A stretch of 40,469 nucleotides of DNA. Source: an uncultured Eubacteriales bacterium. GTDB taxonomy: Bacteria > Bacillota > Clostridia > Christensenellales > Aristaeellaceae. The stretch is taken from positions 1 to 40,469 of the forward strand of contig CADAQZ010000018.1 in assembly GCA_902790175.1 (NCBI GenBank). The letters are read 5' to 3'. Positions 21,780-40,469 of the stretch are shown here, piece by piece. Each line of letters opens with the position of its first letter. The first letter of the stretch is position 1. The translations under genes were made by a program, and so were the position numbers. Below the pieces are notes generated by a model. It was not told the DNA's origin. It ran no database searches and saw only the letters and a list, made by a program, of their open reading frames with translations.

Positions 21780-24677
21780 ATGAAGAAGGGGCACAACGCA
21801 AACAAGAAGAGTCCATGGCGGCGCGCCAGCCGTCCGTTCACCGCGGGCGACTGGCTGCGCCTGTCTGCGCTGGCGGCGGCGATCGCCCTGCTGGCCTGGG
21901 CGGGCGCCGCCCTGCAGCCCTCGAACGACGCAAAGCCCATCGATTCCCCGGTGGTGATCAACCGGGTGATGACCTCGAACCCCTCCGCGTGCTACAGCGT
22001 TCGCGGAAAGTACTACGACTGGGTCGAGCTGCTCAACACCTCCGATGCGGACGTGAACCTGCGGGGCTGGCGCTTCTCCGACACGGTGGACCAGCGCGGG
22101 GCCTTCGCCTTCGGGGACGTCACCCTGCCCCCGAACGGCAGCCTGATCGTCTACTGCGCCCCCAGGCCCGAGGGCTTCGAGGGCGGCGAGCTGTTCACCG
22201 GCTTCTGCCTGGACGCCGACGGCGAGGTGCTGGCCCTGTCCGATGCCCAGCGGCAGCTGGTGCAGGTGCTGGAGGTGCCCGCCATCGCCGCCGCCCAGAT
22301 CTTCCAGCGCGGCGAGGACGGCGCATACAGCGCGGTGCCCTTCGCCCGGATGGCGGCGGAGGGGGCGGTGGACCTGCGGCCCGCGTTCAACCCCGACGGC
22401 GTGAGGATCAACGAGCTGATGGCCTCCAACCGCACCCAGCTGCAGGACGAGGACGGCGACTGGTCCGACTGGATCGAGCTGTACAACGCCTCTGCCTCCG
22501 CCGCGGACCTGACGGACTGCGCCCTGTCCGATGACGACGCCAACCAGCGCAAGTGGGTGCTTCCGCCGCTGACGATGCAGCCCGGCGAATATCTGCTGGT
22601 GTTCGCCTCCGGCAAGGATCGGCGGGAGGACGGCGCGCTGCACACCAACTTCAAGCTCTCCAAGTCCTCCGAGGCCGTGCGGCTCTACGACGCCGACGGC
22701 AACGTGCTCTCCTGGGCGGAGTACGACGCCCTGCCCGGCGAGACCTCCCTCTCCCGCCTGCCCGACGGCAGCCTGACCACCGAGATCCTGCCCACCCCCG
22801 GCTATGAGAACACCGAGGCGGGCGTGCGGGCGGCCCGGTCGCTGGTGAGCCGCAACGCCGACGGCCTGTGCATCAACGAGATCATGGCCAAGGGCGACGG
22901 CGAGGACTGGGTGGAGCTGTACAACGCCGCCGGCAGCGCCGTGGACCTGACGGGCATGGGGCTTTCCGACGACACCGACCACCCCCGCCGCTGGCAGTTC
23001 CCGGAGGGCGCGATCATCCCCGCGAAGGGCTATGTGACGGTGCTGCTCACCGGAAAAGGGGGAGACAGCGGCATCCATAACGGCCGCTATTGCGCCGACT
23101 TCGCCCTCTCGGACGGGGAGACCGCGGTGCTGGCCCGGCCGGACGGCACGCTGATGGACAAGGTGACGCTGTTCGAGCAGCACCATAACATCAGCTACGG
23201 GCGGGCCGAGGGCCAGGAGCGCTATCGCTACTTCCCCGAGGCGACCCCCAGCGCGGCCAACACCACCCCCTCCTACGCCCGCAAGGCGGCGAACGTGGCC
23301 TTCTCGGAGCCCGGCGGACAGCGCGAAGAAAAGGCGCTGACGGTGACGCTCTCGTCGGACCCGGACGTGACGATCTACTACACCACCGACGGCAACGACC
23401 CGACCACGTCCTCCGCGGCCTACACCGGCCCGATCGAGGTGGAGAAGAACACCGTGATCAAGGCGGTGGCCTGGCAGGCGGACCTCATCCCCTCCGACCT
23501 GTGCGTGCAGAGCTACATCCTGGGGGCACACCACGCGCTGCGTCTGGTCTGCGTGTCCGGGGACCGGGACAAGCTGAACGGCTCCTCCGGCATGCTGAAG
23601 ACCGGCATCAAGGGCGAGGGCAGCGAGGCCTACGTGGAGATCTACGAGCCGGACGGCACCCGTGTGATCGCCCAGAAGTGCCTGATGAAGCTGGCCGGTC
23701 ACAGCACCCGCATGCACGAAGGCCAGAAGGGCTTTTCGCTGCGGGCGAAGAAGGAATACGGGGCCAGCCGCTTCAACTACGCCCTGTTCTCCAACCGGGA
23801 CTATCCCTCCTATAAGTCCTTCGTGATGCGCGCCTCGGGGCAGGACTGCAAGCAGACCTTCATGCGCGATTCCGTGCTCAGCGCCCTCGCGGCGGACACC
23901 AGCGTGCTGTACCGCGAGACCGAGGTCTCCGTGGTCTACATCAACGGCCGGTATTGGGGCGTGTACAACATGCGCGAGCGCGTCTGCAACGACATGATCG
24001 CCCAGTTCCACGGCTGGGACAATCCCGACGACGTGGAGTACAAGGAGGGCGCGGGCACTTCCTCCGAGAACTACCAGCAGATGCTGCGGTGGGTGCGGCG
24101 CAACGACCTGTCGAAGGACGCCAACGTGGCCAAGCTGCGGGAAATGGTGGACATCGAGAACTACCTGGAGTACGTGATGCTGGAGATGTACGCCAACAAC
24201 CAGGACCTCAACAACGTGGGCTTCTACCGCAATCCCAAGGCCGACGGCCTCTGGCGCTGGGCGGTGTTCGACCTGGACCTGAGCTTCCAGCTCAGCGGCG
24301 ACAACGTCGGCCCCTGGCTGCGCGGCGATACCGTGGGCTCCATCACCGAGCAGAGCAACCTGCTGTTCAGGCGGCTGATGGAGAACGCCACGCTGCGGGA
24401 CTGGTTCCTGCGGCGCATGGGCGAGCTGCTGGCCACCACGTTCAGCGCCGAAAACGTGACGGGGAAGATCCGGGACCGCTACAACCTGCTGGAGCCGGAG
24501 ATGGGCGCCGAGTGCAAGCGCTGGGACTGGAGCAAGGCCACCTGGAAGCGCTACGGGCAAAGGCTGATCAACTATGCCAAGCGGCGTCCGAAGGACCTGA
24601 TCGAGTACCTGACGGACGACTTCAATCTGACCAAAGACCAGGCGCAGATGTACTTCGGCGCGGCCATGGCGCAGTAG
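21780..24677 (+). CDS. Membrane-anchored lamin-tail / CotH kinase-like surface protein 1
   Basis: This large protein (965 residues from the ATG at 21780) has a basic N-terminus and one hydrophobic segment at about residues 27-45, so the rest should face outward. Three lamin-tail (LTD) domains follow at about 58-150, 207-310 and 362-470, each with a motif like INELMASN and DWIELYN. Next are a chitobiase-type beta domain with IYYTTDGNDPT (about 518-585) and a CotH kinase domain (about 585-950). The CotH core shows MKLAGHSTR, RYWGVYNMRERV, YVMLEMYANNQDLNN and RWAVFDLDLSF, the last with the paired Asp expected in the active site. B. subtilis CotH phosphorylates spore-coat proteins; the substrate here is unknown. 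The start is uncertain, since an in-frame ATG at 21729 overlaps the hairpin and neither ATG has a good ribosome binding site. A paralogue lies at 35754. Confidence 0.9.
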   Translation: MKKGHNANKKSPWRRASRPFTAGDWLRLSALAAAIALLAWAGAALQPSNDAKPIDSPVVINRVMTSNPSACYSVRGKYYDWVELLNTSDADVNLRGWRFSDTVDQRGAFAFGDVTLPPNGSLIVYCAPRPEGFEGGELFTGFCLDADGEVLALSDAQRQLVQVLEVPAIAAAQIFQRGEDGAYSAVPFARMAAEGAVDLRPAFNPDGVRINELMASNRTQLQDEDGDWSDWIELYNASASAADLTDCALSDDDANQRKWVLPPLTMQPGEYLLVFASGKDRREDGALHTNFKLSKSSEAVRLYDADGNVLSWAEYDALPGETSLSRLPDGSLTTEILPTPGYENTEAGVRAARSLVSRNADGLCINEIMAKGDGEDWVELYNAAGSAVDLTGMGLSDDTDHPRRWQFPEGAIIPAKGYVTVLLTGKGGDSGIHNGRYCADFALSDGETAVLARPDGTLMDKVTLFEQHHNISYGRAEGQERYRYFPEATPSAANTTPSYARKAANVAFSEPGGQREEKALTVTLSSDPDVTIYYTTDGNDPTTSSAAYTGPIEVEKNTVIKAVAWQADLIPSDLCVQSYILGAHHALRLVCVSGDRDKLNGSSGMLKTGIKGEGSEAYVEIYEPDGTRVIAQKCLMKLAGHSTRMHEGQKGFSLRAKKEYGASRFNYALFSNRDYPSYKSFVMRASGQDCKQTFMRDSVLSALAADTSVLYRETEVSVVYINGRYWGVYNMRERVCNDMIAQFHGWDNPDDVEYKEGAGTSSENYQQMLRWVRRNDLSKDANVAKLREMVDIENYLEYVMLEMYANNQDLNNVGFYRNPKADGLWRWAVFDLDLSFQLSGDNVGPWLRGDTVGSITEQSNLLFRRLMENATLRDWFLRRMGELLATTFSAENVTGKIRDRYNLLEPEMGAECKRWDWSKATWKRYGQRLINYAKRRPKDLIEYLTDDFNLTKDQAQMYFGAAMAQ

Positions 24678-26778: not shown

Positions 26779-27294
26779 ATGTCTGTGGGCAAGCACTATG
26801 AAATCGAGCGAAAGTACCTGATCCGCTACCCGGACATCCCCACGCTGCTGGCGCAGAAGGGCGTGGAGCAGTGGGAGATCGTGCAGATCTACCTGACGGT
26901 GTCCGGCCCGGGCGAGACGCGCCGCATCCGGCAGGTGGTCTGCGACGGCGGGATCAAGTACTACAAGACCTTCAAGCGGCATCTGTCCAGCGTGAAGAAC
27001 GAGGAGGACGAGGGCGAGATCGACCAACTGGAGTACATCCGCCTGTCCCACGAGATGCAGCCCGGCTGCAAGCCGCTGGGCAAGACGCGCTACCGCATCC
27101 CCTACGCGGGGCACGTGCTGGAGTTCGACATCTACCCCTTCTGGAAGGACCGCGCGATCATGGAGATCGAGCTCGGGCGCGAGGACGAGGGCGCGGCCAT
27201 CCCCGACTACGTGCACATCATCCGCGACGTCAGCGACGACGTGGCCTACAAGAACCGGAGCCTGGCGGAGAACGTGGTGTACGAGGAGATTTGA
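26779..27294 (+). CDS. CYTH-domain (triphosphate tunnel metalloenzyme) protein
   Basis: This 171-residue protein is a single CYTH domain of the triphosphate tunnel metalloenzyme (TTM) superfamily. The ExExK motif is YEIERKYLI (Glu8, Glu10, Lys12). The tunnel residues follow on alternating strands: Arg49 and Arg51, Lys60 and Lys63, Glu78/Glu80, Lys102-Arg104-Arg106, Glu115-Asp117, and Glu129-Glu131 in MEIELG. All charged positions are intact, so it should bind and probably hydrolyse a triphosphate such as inorganic triphosphate or thiamine triphosphate; some relatives are class IV adenylate cyclases. AGGGAGG precedes the ATG. It stands alone between a repeat A copy and a bidirectional terminator. 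Confidence 0.9.
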   Translation: MSVGKHYEIERKYLIRYPDIPTLLAQKGVEQWEIVQIYLTVSGPGETRRIRQVVCDGGIKYYKTFKRHLSSVKNEEDEGEIDQLEYIRLSHEMQPGCKPLGKTRYRIPYAGHVLEFDIYPFWKDRAIMEIELGREDEGAAIPDYVHIIRDVSDDVAYKNRSLAENVVYEEI

Positions 27295-31051: not shown

Positions 31052-31088
31052 ATAATATGTACTAATTTACGTGACGGAGGGCTGCGTT

Positions 31089-32838
<1,750 letters not shown>

Positions 32839-35753: not shown

Positions 35754-38700
35754 GTGGCAAACCAACCCCGATCCACAAATAAGAACAGCAGGCCCGCCTG
35801 GCAGGCGAAGCGCCCCATGGGCGCCCTGCCCGGCGTCATTGCGCTGATCGGCGCGGCGGCGCTGCTTTTGACGTGGCTTGCGCAGTCCAGCCCGCTGCTG
35901 TCCGGCACAGGCCGCGCGGCGGCGAAGTCCGGCCTGCGCATCAGCGAGGTGATGACCTCCAACGCCTCCACGCTGGTGGGCGACGCGGGCGGCATCGTGG
36001 ACTGGATCGAGCTGGAAAACGTCTCCGACGCGCCCATCGACCTGACCGGCTACGCCCTGATGCGCGCGACGAAGCCCGCGCAGGCGTTCGCCTTCCCCGG
36101 CGGCACGCTGCAGCCGGGCCAGTTCGTGCTGGTGCTCGCCGACGGCAGCGGCAAGGCGCAGCAGGCCGACGGCTATCACGCGCCCTTCTGCCTGCCCGCC
36201 TCCGGCGAGGACGTCGCCCTGATCGACAAGGCCGGCAACGGCGTGGACCTGGCGCAGGTGCCCGCGCTGGCGCGCGACCAGGTGTACTGCCGCGACGCGG
36301 CGGGGGAGTGGGCCGTCAGCGATTTCCCGACCCCCGGCGCGGCGAACCGGGCCGAGCGCCTGGACAACGCGCGGGACCGCGAGATCGAGGTGCAGGAGGG
36401 CGCGCTGGAGATCACCGAGGTGATGGCCGACAACGCCACCTTCTTCGCCGACGAGAACGGCCAATACCCCGACTACGTCGAGATCCACAACAAGACAAAC
36501 AGCCCCGTCAATCTGGAGGGCTGGAGCCTTTCGGACAAGCCCGAGAAGCTGACGCGCTGGCAGTTCCCCGCCGTCACGCTTCCCGCCGACGGCTACCTGG
36601 CCGTGCACTGCTCCGGCGACGATCGTCGGTCGGACCCCGCGCACCTGCACGCCAGCTTCAAGATCTCCAACAAGGGCGACAACGTGTTCCTGACCCATCC
36701 CAGCGGCGTGACCGTGAGCCACGTCAAGACGCCGGTGATGGAGCCCGACCAGTGCTACAGTTTGCTCGAGACCGGGTGGAGCAAGCAGTTCTCCCCGTCC
36801 CCGAACTATCCCAACACGCCCCAGGGCGCGGACATCGCCGCGGAGCAGATCGAGCTGAACAACACGCGCGGCGTGCGCATCACCGAGGTGCTCGCCTCCT
36901 CGTCCAAGTCTGACGACTGGATCGAGCTCTACAACGGCACCAGCGCCGCGGTGGACCTATCCGGCTGCGGCCTGTCCGACAACGCGGGCCGTCCGCGCAA
37001 GTGGCAGTTCCCCTCCGGCACCGTGATCGAGCCGGGGCAGTATCTGGGCGTGTTCGCCAACGGCCTGGACAGCGCGACCGAAGGCCGCATCCAGACGAAC
37101 TACCGCCTCTCCAGCGACGGCGGCTACTCCGTGGTGCTCTCCGAGCCCAACGGGACCATCTTTGACCGCGTGTTCGTGCCGATGCAGTACCAGGACATCT
37201 CCTTCGGCCGCGCCGAGGGCCAGAGCGGCCTGAGGTACTTCACCACCGTCACGCCTGGCTCCGCCAACAGCTCCGAGGCCTACTACGGCCGCGCGCCCAA
37301 GCCGATCTACTCGGTGGAGGGCGGCCTGTACAAGACCGGCGACGTGCTGACCGTGGAGCTGTCCGTGCCCTCCAGCTGCCGCGTCTACTACACGCTGGAC
37401 TACACCGACCCCAGCCAGTCCAGCACACTCTACACCGGGCCGATCCAGGTCTCCGAGACCACGATCCTGCGCACGCGCGTGTACGGCGAGGGCTACCTCG
37501 AGTCGTTCATGGACAGCCAGAGCTACCTGTACGACGTGAACAACGGCGGCGGCACCGTGTACGTGGTGTCGATGGTGTCCGATCCCTACAACCTCACCAG
37601 CGACGAGGCCGGCATCATGGTCAAGGGCCCCAATGCCCTCGAGACCTATCCCTTCGGCTCGATGAACAAGGGCGCGAACTTCTGGATGGACTGGGAGCGC
37701 GAGGCGCACGTGGAGGTGTTCAACCCCGACGGCAGCACGCTGATCTCCCAGGAGTGCGGCATCAAGCTGCACGGCCAGTACAGCCGCGCCGAGAAGCAAA
37801 AGGCCTTCAAGGTGATCGCCCGCAGCAAGTACGGCGCCAACCGCTTCCAGGCCGCGATCTTCTCGCGCAGGCCCTACACCGAATACCAGTCCTTCCTGCT
37901 GCGCTCGTCCAGCGAGGACGGCTACAAGACCCGCTTCCGCGACGCGCTCCTGCAGCGGCTGGTGGAGGGCGGCTGCGTGGACTACCAGGAGACCGAGGTC
38001 GGCGTGCTCTACATCGACGGCCAGTACTGGGGCCACTACAACCTGCGCGAGCGCATCTGCAAGAGCAACATCTGCCAGTTCGAGGGCTGGGAGGGCGACG
38101 AGGACGACATCGACCTGATCAAGGCCAACACCAACGTGATGCAGGGCTCCAACGAGACGATGGTCCAGCTGCTGGACTACGTCAAGAGCCACGACATGAA
38201 CACCGACGAGGCCTGGCAGGTGCTCGACAGCGCCATCGACATCGACAACTACATCGAGTACATGGCGGCGGAGATGTACACCGGCAACACCGATACGCTG
38301 AACGTCAAGCGCTACCGCAACCCGAAGGCCGACGGCAAGTGGCGCTGGGTGCTGTTCGATCTGGACTGGGCGTTCTCGGTGGACACCAACTCGCCCAAGC
38401 GCTGGCTGACGCCGGGCGGCATGGGCAACAAGCTGCGCACCGACAACACGCTGTTCATCGCCTGCATGAAGAACGAGCGGTTCGCGGACAGGTTCCTCAC
38501 GTTCCTGGGCGAGAAGATGGCCACCACCTACAGCGCCGACAGCGTCGCGGCCATGACCGAGGAGTTCTACAACGCCATCGCGCCGCTGATGCCGGACCAC
38601 TACGCGCGCTGGGATTTCAGCGAGTCCGAGCACAAGTCCGCGATCCGCGAATTCGTGCGCTACGGCAACGCCAGGCCGGGCCGCATGCTGCAGTTCCTGA

Positions 38701-38807
38701 AGTACAACCCCTACCTGCCGCTGAGCAAGGCCCAGTTCGAGCAGTACTTCGGAAAGGTGATGGAGCAGGTCGGCGTGACCTATGAGGAAATAAAGGAAGC
38801 CAAGTAA
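35754..38807 (+). CDS. Membrane-anchored lamin-tail / CotH kinase-like surface protein 2
   Basis: This 1017-residue protein is a paralogue of the one at 21780, with the same domain order. A basic N-terminus and hydrophobic segment (about 26-43) are followed by LTD domains at about 61-150, 218-320 and 374-480 (ISEVMTSN, ITEVMADN, ITEVLASS; each with a WIEL/YVEI strand). A chitobiase-type domain with VYYTLDYTDPS (about 532-598) and a CotH kinase domain (about 600-985) complete it. Kinase landmarks are IKLHGQYSRAEKQKAFKV, LRSSSEDGYKTRFRDALL, YWGHYNLRERI, EMYTGNTDTLNVKRYRNP and WRWVLFDLDWAFS; the FDLD pair is intact. The start is a GTG at 35754 with AGGGAGG upstream. It is the first of a cluster with VTC, DUF4956 and a partial gene. 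The 184-nt leader is AT-rich with a GC-rich hairpin near its end and no promoter I trust. Confidence 0.92.
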   Translation: MANQPRSTNKNSRPAWQAKRPMGALPGVIALIGAAALLLTWLAQSSPLLSGTGRAAAKSGLRISEVMTSNASTLVGDAGGIVDWIELENVSDAPIDLTGYALMRATKPAQAFAFPGGTLQPGQFVLVLADGSGKAQQADGYHAPFCLPASGEDVALIDKAGNGVDLAQVPALARDQVYCRDAAGEWAVSDFPTPGAANRAERLDNARDREIEVQEGALEITEVMADNATFFADENGQYPDYVEIHNKTNSPVNLEGWSLSDKPEKLTRWQFPAVTLPADGYLAVHCSGDDRRSDPAHLHASFKISNKGDNVFLTHPSGVTVSHVKTPVMEPDQCYSLLETGWSKQFSPSPNYPNTPQGADIAAEQIELNNTRGVRITEVLASSSKSDDWIELYNGTSAAVDLSGCGLSDNAGRPRKWQFPSGTVIEPGQYLGVFANGLDSATEGRIQTNYRLSSDGGYSVVLSEPNGTIFDRVFVPMQYQDISFGRAEGQSGLRYFTTVTPGSANSSEAYYGRAPKPIYSVEGGLYKTGDVLTVELSVPSSCRVYYTLDYTDPSQSSTLYTGPIQVSETTILRTRVYGEGYLESFMDSQSYLYDVNNGGGTVYVVSMVSDPYNLTSDEAGIMVKGPNALETYPFGSMNKGANFWMDWEREAHVEVFNPDGSTLISQECGIKLHGQYSRAEKQKAFKVIARSKYGANRFQAAIFSRRPYTEYQSFLLRSSSEDGYKTRFRDALLQRLVEGGCVDYQETEVGVLYIDGQYWGHYNLRERICKSNICQFEGWEGDEDDIDLIKANTNVMQGSNETMVQLLDYVKSHDMNTDEAWQVLDSAIDIDNYIEYMAAEMYTGNTDTLNVKRYRNPKADGKWRWVLFDLDWAFSVDTNSPKRWLTPGGMGNKLRTDNTLFIACMKNERFADRFLTFLGEKMATTYSADSVAAMTEEFYNAIAPLMPDHYARWDFSESEHKSAIREFVRYGNARPGRMLQFLKYNPYLPLSKAQFEQYFGKVMEQVGVTYEEIKEAK

Positions 38808-38823
38808 ACAAAGAGGGTATACC

Positions 38824-39531
38824 ATGCAGCAGAAACGAAACGGTCTGCCCGCGCGGCACGAACTGAAGTACTTTATCAACCCCGCGGAGCTGGAGGCGCT
38901 GCGCGCGCGCCTGCGCGGCGCGCTGGCGATGGACAGCCACTGCGTCGGCGGCCGTCCCTACGTCATCCGCTCGCTGTACTTCGACGACATCGACGACTCC
39001 GCCTTCTACGACAAGCAGGCGGGCGTGATGCACCGCGACAAGTACCGCATCCGCATCTACCGCTACTCCGACAAGGAGATCTTCCTGGAGCGCAAGCGCA
39101 AGCTGGGCGACCTGATCCAGAAGAGCAGCGTGCAGATCACGCGGCGGCTGTGCGACCAGCTGATCGACGGGAACCCCTCGGGGCTCTACAAGGCGCAGAA
39201 CCCGCTCTTGCAGGACATGTACGTGCAGATGCGCACAAAGCTGCTGCGCCCGCGCGTGATCGTGGACTACGCCCGCGAGGCCTACCTGCACAAGGCCGAG
39301 GACGTGCGCATCACGTTCGACCTCAGCCTGCGCTCGGGGCTGGCCAGCCACGACCTGTTCAACCCGAACCTGCCCACCGTCTGCCCGCACGATCGCAACG
39401 TGGAGATCCTGGAGGTCAAGTTCAACAACTACCTGCCGGACTACGTCAACGCGCTGCTGCACGGCGTGGAGGCGGAGCGCAGCGCCGTCAGCAAGTACAT
39501 CCTCTGCCGGCGGTACGAGCCGCTTGGATAG
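38824..39531 (+). CDS. VTC-domain polyphosphate polymerase-like protein
   Basis: This 235-residue protein is a stand-alone VTC domain. In yeast Vtc4 this fold polymerises ATP phosphate into inorganic polyphosphate inside a tunnel of basic residues. The tunnel positions are conserved: HELKYFI (Lys15), IRSLYFDD (Arg49), KYRIRIYRY (Arg75, Arg77), FLERKRK (Glu89, Lys91 and Lys93), RVIVDYAREAY (Arg144), DLSLR (Arg170) and EILEVKF (Glu197, Lys199). There is no SPX domain, so any regulation differs from that of the yeast complex. It begins 16 nt after the CotH gene stop, with AGAGGG upstream, and its own stop abuts a repeat B copy. In several bacteria the VTC domain, CotH and DUF4956 occur together; the functional link is inferred. 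Confidence 0.9.
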   Translation: MQQKRNGLPARHELKYFINPAELEALRARLRGALAMDSHCVGGRPYVIRSLYFDDIDDSAFYDKQAGVMHRDKYRIRIYRYSDKEIFLERKRKLGDLIQKSSVQITRRLCDQLIDGNPSGLYKAQNPLLQDMYVQMRTKLLRPRVIVDYAREAYLHKAEDVRITFDLSLRSGLASHDLFNPNLPTVCPHDRNVEILEVKFNNYLPDYVNALLHGVEAERSAVSKYILCRRYEPLG

Positions 39532-39590
39532 AGTGAGGAGTGAGGAGTTGAGAAAGCCTGAACCGCTTTCATTTCTCATCCCGCAATTCC
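39531..39590. repeat. Repeat family B, copy 6: variant GAGTGAG heptamers
   Basis: GAGTGAGGAGTGAGGAGTTG begins at the VTC stop codon (TAG at 39529-39531). A complementary-looking GAAAG / CTTTC pair and a TTTCTCATC segment follow about 15 nt later. The unit is a variant of the GGGATTA and AGAGTTT forms, so membership in family B is by position and structure more than sequence. Confidence 0.5.
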
Positions 39591-39643
39591 ATTGATATAT
39601 ACATCCTGCCTTAGCATGACATACAAACAGGAGGAAGAAGTCC

Positions 39644-40303
39644 ATGAACAGCATCTTTGCCAATCTATTCAGCTCCCAGACCATCACCCCCGCGTCCTTC
39701 CCGACGATCCTGCTCTCGCTGGCGCTCGCGCTGGCGGCGGGCCTGTTCATCGCGTGGATCTACCGGCGCAACTATCGCGGTGTGATGTTCTCCAACAACT
39801 TCACCCTCACCCTGGTGATGATGACGCTGATCACCTGCCCGGTGGTCATGTGCATCCGCGAGAGCATCCAGCTCTCGATGGGCATGGTGGGCGCGCTGTC
39901 GATCGTCCGCTTCCGCACCGCCGTGAAGGACCCGCTGGATACCGCCTACATGTTCTGGGCGCTGACCATGGGCATCCTGCTGGGCGCGGGTCAGTTCTTC
40001 CTCACCGCCTGCGCGGTGGTGGGCATCGGCCTGCTGCTGACGCTTTTGACGCACATGCAGTCCAAGGGCATGAACAGCTACCTGCTGGTGGTGCGCATGG
40101 GCGACGATGCCGAGCGCCAGGCCAACCAGCTGGTGAACGGCCTGAAGATGCAGCAGCTCAAGAGCAAGACCGTCTCGGCCAACGGCATCGAGGCGACCTA
40201 CGAGGTGCGCGTGGACAAGCCCGACGCCTTCCTGAACAAGCTGCGCGGCGTGCCCGGCGTGTACGACGCCACGCTGGTGTCCTACTCCGGCGAGACGGTC
40301 TGA
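39644..40303 (+). CDS. DUF4956 family membrane protein
   Basis: This 219-residue protein has four hydrophobic segments (about residues 22-42, 53-75, 100-115 and 120-140) and a soluble C-terminal domain of about 80 residues (SYLLVVRMGDD onward). The conserved stretch GMVGALSIVRFRTAVKDPLD (residues about 82-101) is the family hallmark; its Arg pair and Asp may lie in or near the membrane. The C-terminal part has an alternating beta-alpha pattern, like a small ferredoxin-like domain (EATYEVRVDKPDAFLNKL). The function is unknown. It follows the VTC gene by 112 nt in the CotH cluster, so a role in moving or handling the phosphate polymer or its product is plausible but unproven. GGAGGAAG precedes the ATG. 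Confidence 0.9.
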   Translation: MNSIFANLFSSQTITPASFPTILLSLALALAAGLFIAWIYRRNYRGVMFSNNFTLTLVMMTLITCPVVMCIRESIQLSMGMVGALSIVRFRTAVKDPLDTAYMFWALTMGILLGAGQFFLTACAVVGIGLLLTLLTHMQSKGMNSYLLVVRMGDDAERQANQLVNGLKMQQLKSKTVSANGIEATYEVRVDKPDAFLNKLRGVPGVYDATLVSYSGETV

Positions 40304-40339
40304 TCGCGTACCCGATAGAAACACTGGGAGGGATTTCCC

Positions 40340-40469
40340 TTGACTGATCACAACAGGCCGGCGCAGCGGCGTCCCCAGGCGTCCAGCCGGTTTGGCGAAC
40401 TGAACGAGGCGAGGCCGGCGCAGCGGCCCGCGCAGGCCCGGCCCACGGCGGCCCGGCCCGCCGCGGCAC
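40340..40469 (+). CDS. Start of a Pro/Ala/Arg/Gln-rich protein (partial, 5' end only)
   Basis: A TTG at 40340 has GGGAGGG about 7 nt upstream. It opens a frame reading TDHNRPAQRRPQASSRFGEL and then mostly Ala, Arg, Pro and Gln to the window edge. About 43 codons are visible, with no stop. The composition suggests a flexible cytoplasmic tail before a transmembrane or secreted domain that lies outside the window. It begins 37 nt after the DUF4956 stop, so it is probably another member of the CotH-VTC cluster. No homology can be assigned from this part. Confidence 0.5.
   Translation, partial: MTDHNRPAQRRPQASSRFGELNEARPAQRPAQARPTAARPAAA

Follow-up and report, generated by a model that had tools for sequence, protein, structure and literature searches.

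Gene content of the locus

The window analyzed here, a 40,469-nucleotide stretch of DNA from an uncultured Eubacteriales bacterium, is contig C18 (end at 40469) of a draft genome (G000; 2.43 Mb, 72 contigs, 87.8% complete). Its last 4.7 kb are filled by four plus-strand genes with intergenic gaps of 16, 112, and 36 nucleotides. These genes encode a surface protein with CotH and LTD domains (35754..38807; 1,017 amino acids, identified by Pfam; GTG start, with an ATG at 35817 also possible), a VTC-type triphosphate-tunnel protein (38824..39531; 235 amino acids), a DUF4956 membrane protein (39644..40303; 219 amino acids), and the first 43 codons of a further protein (40340..40469), which is ended by the contig end. 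The coordinates confirm the same-strand cluster of four genes described in a first-pass annotation made from the DNA letters alone. Pfam matches were all above curated cut-offs, at 182 bits for LTD (three stretches), 122.5 for CotH, 44.3 for CHB_HEX_C_1, 135.2 for VTC, and 44.9 for DUF4956. A promoter scan of the locus yielded no promoter-like sites, and four terminator-like sites were present, compared with 2.7 (standard deviation 2.0) in shuffled sequences.

The fourth gene had been described as encoding a low-complexity Pro/Ala-rich protein. In four relatives (L040, L047, L048, and L056), a similar Pro/Ala-rich start leads into a single hydrophobic stretch and then LTD domains, CotH being absent, and the L047 counterpart matches Pfam LTD at 106.5 bits in two stretches. 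Comparison with these tails identifies the gene at 40340 as the start of a second LTD surface protein, which replaces the low-complexity description. Among the relatives' loci, 18 of 40 have an LTD-only gene adjoining the VTC-DUF4956 pair, as do 7 of 80 named loci (L075-L081); the named loci, here and below, are the best 80 of 588 DUF4956 loci. Gene order varies across these 80, occurring as CotH-VTC-DUF4956, CotH-DUF4956-VTC, or VTC-DUF4956-CotH.

VTC and DUF4956 form a near-obligate pair

Conservation of the pair was assessed in a phylum sample of 348 genomes (source genome included), in a relatives' set of 60 genomes (the source genome and 59 relatives), and in three phylum samples of loci with 1.5-kb flanks (64 loci together), the second centered on an Atopobium record and the third on a Methanocorpusculum record. 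Across the 348 genomes, VTC and DUF4956 were each found in 53, and these were the identical 53, spread over 30 family labels; both were missing from the other 295. Scoring by distance (matches at most 1 kb apart on the same strand), VTC accompanied 58 of 60 DUF4956 matches in this sample, and DUF4956 accompanied 58 of 63 VTC matches. The misses were one genome with both genes at a contig start (G121), one with the genes about 2 kb apart and CotH between them (G195), and partial VTC matches in two others (G329 and G367). In the relatives' set, 72 of 80 DUF4956 matches and 71 of 79 VTC matches were paired by the same distance. VTC was present in 46 of these 60 genomes and DUF4956 in 45 (44 above the cut-off); the one genome apart was G011, where the VTC match begins at contig base 82.

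Gene neighborhoods gave the same picture. VTC was directly adjacent to DUF4956 on the same strand in 77 of the 80 named loci, the exceptions being two loci that reach a contig end (L085 and L096) and one with a predicted 68-codon frame in between (L145). Comparison of VTC and DUF4956 strands in the three phylum samples of loci placed VTC on the DUF4956 strand in 62 of 64 (30/30, 21/21, and 11/13), with the DUF4956 strand of L231-L234 taken from the listed place of the match, where the local profile gave none; VTC was not found within the 1.5-kb flanks of L239 and L240. Among 14 control genomes, both families matched in the same three, namely Bacteroides ihuae, Corynebacterium glutamicum, and Methanosarcina acetivorans; C. 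glutamicum gave a CotH match as well. Fisher and log-probability values for these co-occurrences take no account of shared ancestry and were set aside as evidence. VTC and DUF4956 are a near-obligate pair, and their adjacency, which the first-pass annotation had proposed to check, holds far beyond close relatives (53/53 shared genomes). The identical presence of the two families across 348 genomes argues for one machine, which VTC and DUF4956 probably form together.

Twelve of the loci (L210-L216 and L230-L234) also gave PF16316 matches of 145-203 bits, versus 45 for the window, and each of the 12 has a same-strand VTC gene. These stronger matches perhaps mark two deep branches of DUF4956.

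The VTC protein retains nine tunnel residues of the polyphosphate polymerase Vtc4

The VTC domain is the only domain in the 235 residues of this protein (Pfam), and both the SPX domain and the fused membrane domain of yeast Vtc4 are missing. Against yeast structures, the VTC profile matched Vtc4 most strongly (3g3q; E = 1.8e-17), followed by Vtc2 (4.1e-10) and Vtc3 (1.6e-7). A single-sequence search of the PDB was weak (Vtc4, E = 0.27), and a profile was needed for a clear match. The top Foldseek match of the AlphaFold2 (AF2) model (pLDDT 93.1, pTM 0.89) was 3g3r (E = 1.6e-15), placing the predicted tunnel fold nearest to Vtc4.

Equivalents of Vtc4 K200, R264, R266, K281, K294, R361, R373, E426, and K458 were located at positions 15, 75, 77, 91, 100, 151, 162, 197, and 224, respectively, and all nine are invariant in 54 alignment rows, so that the VTC active site is conserved in homologs. 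The "complete basic tunnel" noted previously stands for these nine residues but not for Vtc4 K455, which is replaced by A221 in the window VTC. Residue numbering was anchored on what we take to be K200 of Vtc4, and a catalytic role of the tunnel residues other than R264 and R266 is likewise presumed. The result agrees with the R264 and R266 of PMC8749416, which reports that both are essential for polyphosphate synthesis and that the Vtc2 tunnel domain is inactive. Judging from residues and fold, the window VTC would make polyphosphate from ATP.

The source genome also encodes a PPK1 domain (G000:C37:22347-22967), and PPK1 was present in 24 of 32 VTC-positive genomes tested, source genome included. 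Because PPK1 coexists with it, VTC need not be the origin of bulk internal polyphosphate, and this coexistence suggests a task other than internal storage for VTC. A role for VTC as the sole polyphosphate polymerase is ruled out by PPK1 in the same genome. Elsewhere in the window (26785-27294), a 169-amino-acid protein weakly resembles CYTH tunnel enzymes (E = 0.0071, below the Pfam cut-off).

DUF4956 is a remote relative of MgtC/SapB

Profile-profile comparison (hhalign) of DUF4956 with MgtC/SapB profiles from the source genome and its relatives gave probabilities of 97.3-98.0 (E = 2.3e-11 to 3.1e-13; score 78.5-92.4) across 192-198 columns, end to end. The control profiles (two reversed, 10 block-shuffled, two VTC, and 13 from other membrane families) reached at most a probability of 10.1 and a score of 27.2. 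The AF2 model of DUF4956 (pLDDT 84.6, pTM 0.69), predicted to be membrane-embedded, has helices at residues 16-43, 51-71, 75-89, 97-114, and 118-139 and a C-terminal beta-alpha-beta-beta-alpha-beta domain. MgtC itself has five helices and a C-terminal ACT-like domain. The top Foldseek matches of the model in the PDB were ACT domains of GTP pyrophosphokinase (best E = 1.2e-3, probability 1.0, C-terminal part only), mixed with other ferredoxin-like folds, and none reached E = 0.001. R89 and R91 are invariant in 66 rows.

Several results weigh against this kinship. The curated MgtC cut-offs were missed, Pfam at E = 0.01 gave DUF4956 alone, and NCBIfam PRK09977 scored 17.1 bits versus 214. No MgtC entry was among the best 50 Foldseek rows, and a sequence search of the PDB with DUF4956 gave no match or a chance-level one to tropomyosin. 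Moreover, a 12-row set of other PF16316 members, including an L213 row in poor frame, matched MgtC at only 1.2-5.2 in hhalign. The same set matched the profile of the window's DUF4956 clade (A4) at 96.9, and a profile merging its 12 rows with the A4 and A2 rows, which dominate it, matched MgtC at 97.9.

On the profile alignments and the model, we classify DUF4956 as a remote MgtC/SapB relative with five predicted helices and an ACT-like C-terminal domain. The earlier label of an uncharacterized membrane protein DUF4956 is therefore kept as to family and amended to MgtC/SapB-like, given the hhalign result and its controls. DUF4956 resembles the MgtC/SapB family in its remote match over nearly the whole length and in this architecture, but differs in its sub-threshold scores, in a conserved motif of its own clade (GALSIVRFRTAVKDP), and in its near-obligate VTC neighbor. 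MgtC-type proteins have long been studied, and their biochemical role is unsettled; the kinship would tie them to a phosphate-handling enzyme. One of three true MgtC matches in the source genome (G000:C2:131636-132046) has a TAA inside the match.

The surface partner of the pair is exchangeable

The CotH-LTD protein consists of a basic N-terminal tail, one hydrophobic stretch, three LTD domains, a CHB_HEX domain (CHB_HEX_C_1, residues 523-584), and a C-terminal CotH domain (residues 670-969; 37761..38660), the last placed by Pfam. Its basic tail and LTD domains suggest that it is membrane-anchored and faces outward. The CotH profile (A7) matched PDB 5jd9, the spore-coat kinase CotH, with E = 3.1e-30; a single-sequence search of the PDB with the CotH-LTD protein gave no match, and a profile was needed. 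All 40 alignment rows keep D847 and D869, which correspond in the alignment to the catalytic Asp pair of spore-coat CotH; they are 22 residues apart, versus 23 in both the aligned 5jd9 pair and D228-D251. On this alignment and the similar spacing, we equate them with D228 and D251; CotH carrying D228Q or D251A is inactive in Bacillus subtilis (PMC7821199). The window CotH thus keeps both catalytic aspartates, bearing out active-site conservation for this protein as well, and is predicted to be kinase-like. It shares the domain and the aspartates with spore-coat CotH but differs in being membrane-anchored, probably extracellular, and fused to LTD domains. A second CotH-type protein lies in the window at 21780-24677 (CotH domain at 23697-24593), without VTC or DUF4956 beside it, and a third CotH lies elsewhere in the source genome (G000:C5:119842-120738).

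CotH was located within three genes of the pair on the same strand in 66 of the 80 named loci, with LTD in 43 and without it in 23. In the phylum sample, CotH was found in 43 of the 53 pair genomes, 33 of which have the gene on the same strand as the pair at a distance of at most 3 kb; of the remaining 295 genomes, 5 carried CotH, one of these with a match that fell short of the curated cut-off. Nine of the 10 pair genomes without CotH carry a Cthe_2159-like gene next to the pair or in its vicinity (E ≤ 2.3e-33), identified not by Pfam but by a profile of six proteins matching PF14262. This gene lies about 2.2 kb further on in L250, past a response regulator and kinase, and on the opposite strand in L252; the tenth locus, L244, had no such gene near the pair by profile search. 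Of the 14 named loci without nearby CotH, three have a PF14262 protein (L117, L144, and L151), and the rest, several of them cut by contig ends, were viewed by eye. The third partner is interchangeable: either CotH, which may or may not carry LTD, or a Cthe_2159 protein.

Some of these partners share an anchor. A profile was built from the 36 N-terminal residues of 15 LTD-less CotH partners, chosen by eye from 31 rows (some of them fragments); in the remaining rows the motif was missing, or the start was late or cut. Run against the N-termini of 1,369 proteins from the loci, the profile recovered, beyond its training rows, the Cthe_2159 partners of L144 (1.1e-12), L117 (2e-8), and L151 (0.0034), then further CotH partners (0.0097-0.032), with the first protein away from the pair at 0.04. 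The L151 protein was called from a late start, and an earlier ATG in the DNA gives the full motif, identical at 21 of 34 positions to the CotH partner of L152. In a separate set of ten loci, the profile also found the Cthe_2159 protein of L249 (1.4e-9). CotH partners and 4 of the 15 Cthe_2159 partners examined (6 + 9) therefore have this anchor in common, meaning that one anchor carries two unrelated ectodomains at the pair. By profile similarity, we read this N-terminal exchange as a domain swap at the VTC-DUF4956 pair in those four partners, which suggests the part of the surface protein that belongs to the machine.

Relation to described gene sets

That CotH/VTC/DUF4956 neighborhoods recur in bacteria without a demonstrated function was rightly noted in the first-pass annotation; they have been published as Pel accessory genes (PMC7112168). 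There, as at the window, cotH, a poly-phosphate polymerase (PPP) gene, and DUF4956 are contiguous. The published set also has DUF4832 and is contiguous with pel operons, whereas no PelG was found in the source genome, the CotH protein of the window carries LTD domains, and a second LTD protein follows. The same study suggests that CotH may regulate Pel by phosphorylation; its main text does not contain the words MgtC, Cthe_2159, carbohydrate-binding, or lamin tail. A further possible example is NELoc-2 of Clostridium perfringens, described as having CotH and two VTC genes, each followed by a 222- to 226-amino-acid "tubulin" at the cytoplasmic membrane (PMC2879425). From this published description, by which alone they were compared, the "tubulin" genes may be DUF4956.

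In the literature searched, the name polyphosphate polymerase is given to bacterial VTC on grounds of homology, and DUF4956 counts as a domain of unknown function. MgtC was unmentioned in the main text of the three open-licence papers found to name DUF4956. MgtC kinship, obligate pairing, and the anchor swap were not found in the open-licence literature searched, a search that did not extend to any existing grouping of DUF4956 with MgtC by Pfam or others. The gene set is already known; the unity of the pair, the DUF4956-MgtC kinship, and the exchangeable anchored partner are the additions of the present analysis.

Proposed function and alternative explanations

We tentatively favor membrane-coupled synthesis or export of polyphosphate by VTC and DUF4956, serving an interchangeable surface protein. 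In this proposal, VTC and DUF4956 would be two subunits of one membrane machine, with VTC at the inner face using its tunnel to make polyphosphate from ATP. DUF4956, as the MgtC-like subunit, would tether the polymerase to the membrane and link chain synthesis to translocation, taking over in trans the job that the membrane helices of Vtc1/Vtc3/Vtc4 perform in the yeast complex. The terminal part would be the outward protein with its single-helix anchor (LTD plus CotH here, CotH alone or a Cthe_2159 domain elsewhere), which may receive, hold, or use phosphate, for example by phosphorylating or cross-linking a surface protein or polysaccharide. The absence of a membrane part in VTC, taken with the near-obligate pairing, is most simply read as pointing to a two-protein polymerase-translocator that has an outward partner. 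In the yeast VTC complex, the membrane helices form a basic channel beneath the tunnel domain, and translocation is coupled to synthesis (PMC9911596). The yeast complex is similar in tunnel fold, catalytic residues, and the presence of a membrane partner, but the window has no SPX, a separate MgtC-like membrane protein instead of Vtc1-type helices, and an extra surface protein. Polyphosphate as the product, its export by DUF4956, and its use by the surface protein are each putative steps. The first-pass reading, in which a phosphate polymer or phosphorylated surface polymer is made at the membrane and attached or sensed outside, is supported in part, through the conserved adjacency and active-site residues; the polymer, its export and attachment, and an interface between VTC and DUF4956 stay hypothetical.

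A number of observations weigh against this proposal. The relatives' set holds eight DUF4956 and eight VTC matches without a partner within 1 kb, and the K455 equivalent of the tunnel is lost. Where Cthe_2159 takes the place of CotH there is no kinase, and CotH chemistry cannot therefore be the constant function. The shared anchor was not found in 11 of the 15 Cthe_2159 partners (L067, L071, L072, and all but L249 of the nine from the ten-locus set), nor in the CotH-LTD protein of the window itself. The known role of MgtC is that of a regulator binding the PhoR histidine kinase (PMC6658541), not that of a channel, and a response regulator and histidine kinase lie within three genes in 15 of the 80 named loci. 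The literature searched reports no polyphosphate, transport, or kinase activity for such a locus. An extension of the proposal, in which VTC polyphosphate passed out via DUF4956 is the phosphate donor for extracellular CotH, surface polymers are phosphorylated without ATP, and the anchor shared with Cthe_2159 partners docks one export complex, is speculative and quite improbable.

MgtC binding to PhoR and the two-component systems in those 15 loci (L113, L115, L117, L123, L127, L135, L136, L139, L141, L142, L144, L146, L149, L150, and L154) make a regulatory unit the main rival. DUF4956, through its ACT-like domain, would sense phosphate or nucleotide state and signal to a histidine kinase or surface-polymer synthase, VTC would make or trim the signal, and the surface protein would be the output. 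The MgtC kinship by hhalign, the regulatory ACT domains among the top Foldseek matches, and the association of the module with Pel operons (PMC7112168) are all consistent with this idea. However, none of the 15 two-component loci has an LTD-CotH gene, and among the 43 LTD-CotH loci both clusters (response regulator and histidine kinase) occur only in L088 and L091, a few genes off; neither cluster occurs in the window. Both families are also large, such that some neighborhood is expected, and regulation would leave the conserved polymerase residues unexplained. We consider a regulatory unit doubtful, and less likely than membrane-coupled synthesis or export.

It is unlikely, too, that VTC is a tunnel enzyme acting on another substrate, with triphosphate handling or phosphate transfer to a lipid or polymer carrier modifying a surface glycan or protein without free polyphosphate. 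The same fold occurs in ygiF, thiamine triphosphatase, and RNA capping triphosphatase (Foldseek), PPK1 is already in the genome, and the family names of the surface partners point to carbohydrate-binding or kinase-like proteins. Nonetheless, the VTC sequence and structure are nearest to the polymerase Vtc4, and the equivalents of R264 and R266, the residues essential for synthesis (PMC8749416), are kept.

Lastly, a Pel-operon accessory cassette acting on Pel polysaccharide is very improbable here. In its favor, PMC7112168 describes streptococcal and clostridial species in which pelDEADAFG is contiguous with cotH, poly-phosphate polymerase, and DUF4956, and bifidobacteria have a variant. Against it, PelG was found in only 6 of the 60 genomes at E = 0.001 (2 above the cut-off) versus 46 for VTC, leaving dependence on Pel unsupported. 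PelG, the sole pel gene searched, was not found in the source genome, where the contig end at 40469 hides the downstream side, and it exceeded the cut-off in 0 of 28 genomes of the genus, with weak matches in two (G006 and G024). With the genome at 87.8% completeness, a single absence is weak evidence, unlike the pattern across relatives.

Neighboring genes

The PIG-L gene just upstream had been suggested as a possible member of the module. Its cluster was found in 2 of the 80 named loci (L077 and L078) and was absent from the same-genus loci L036 and L045, and we regard it as neighboring synteny only. Elsewhere in the window (31071-32838), LepA is split, by an assembly error or a real break, into two overlapping frames (31071-32165 and 31573-32838), versus a single 601-amino-acid frame in relatives such as L042, L045, L047, and L055.

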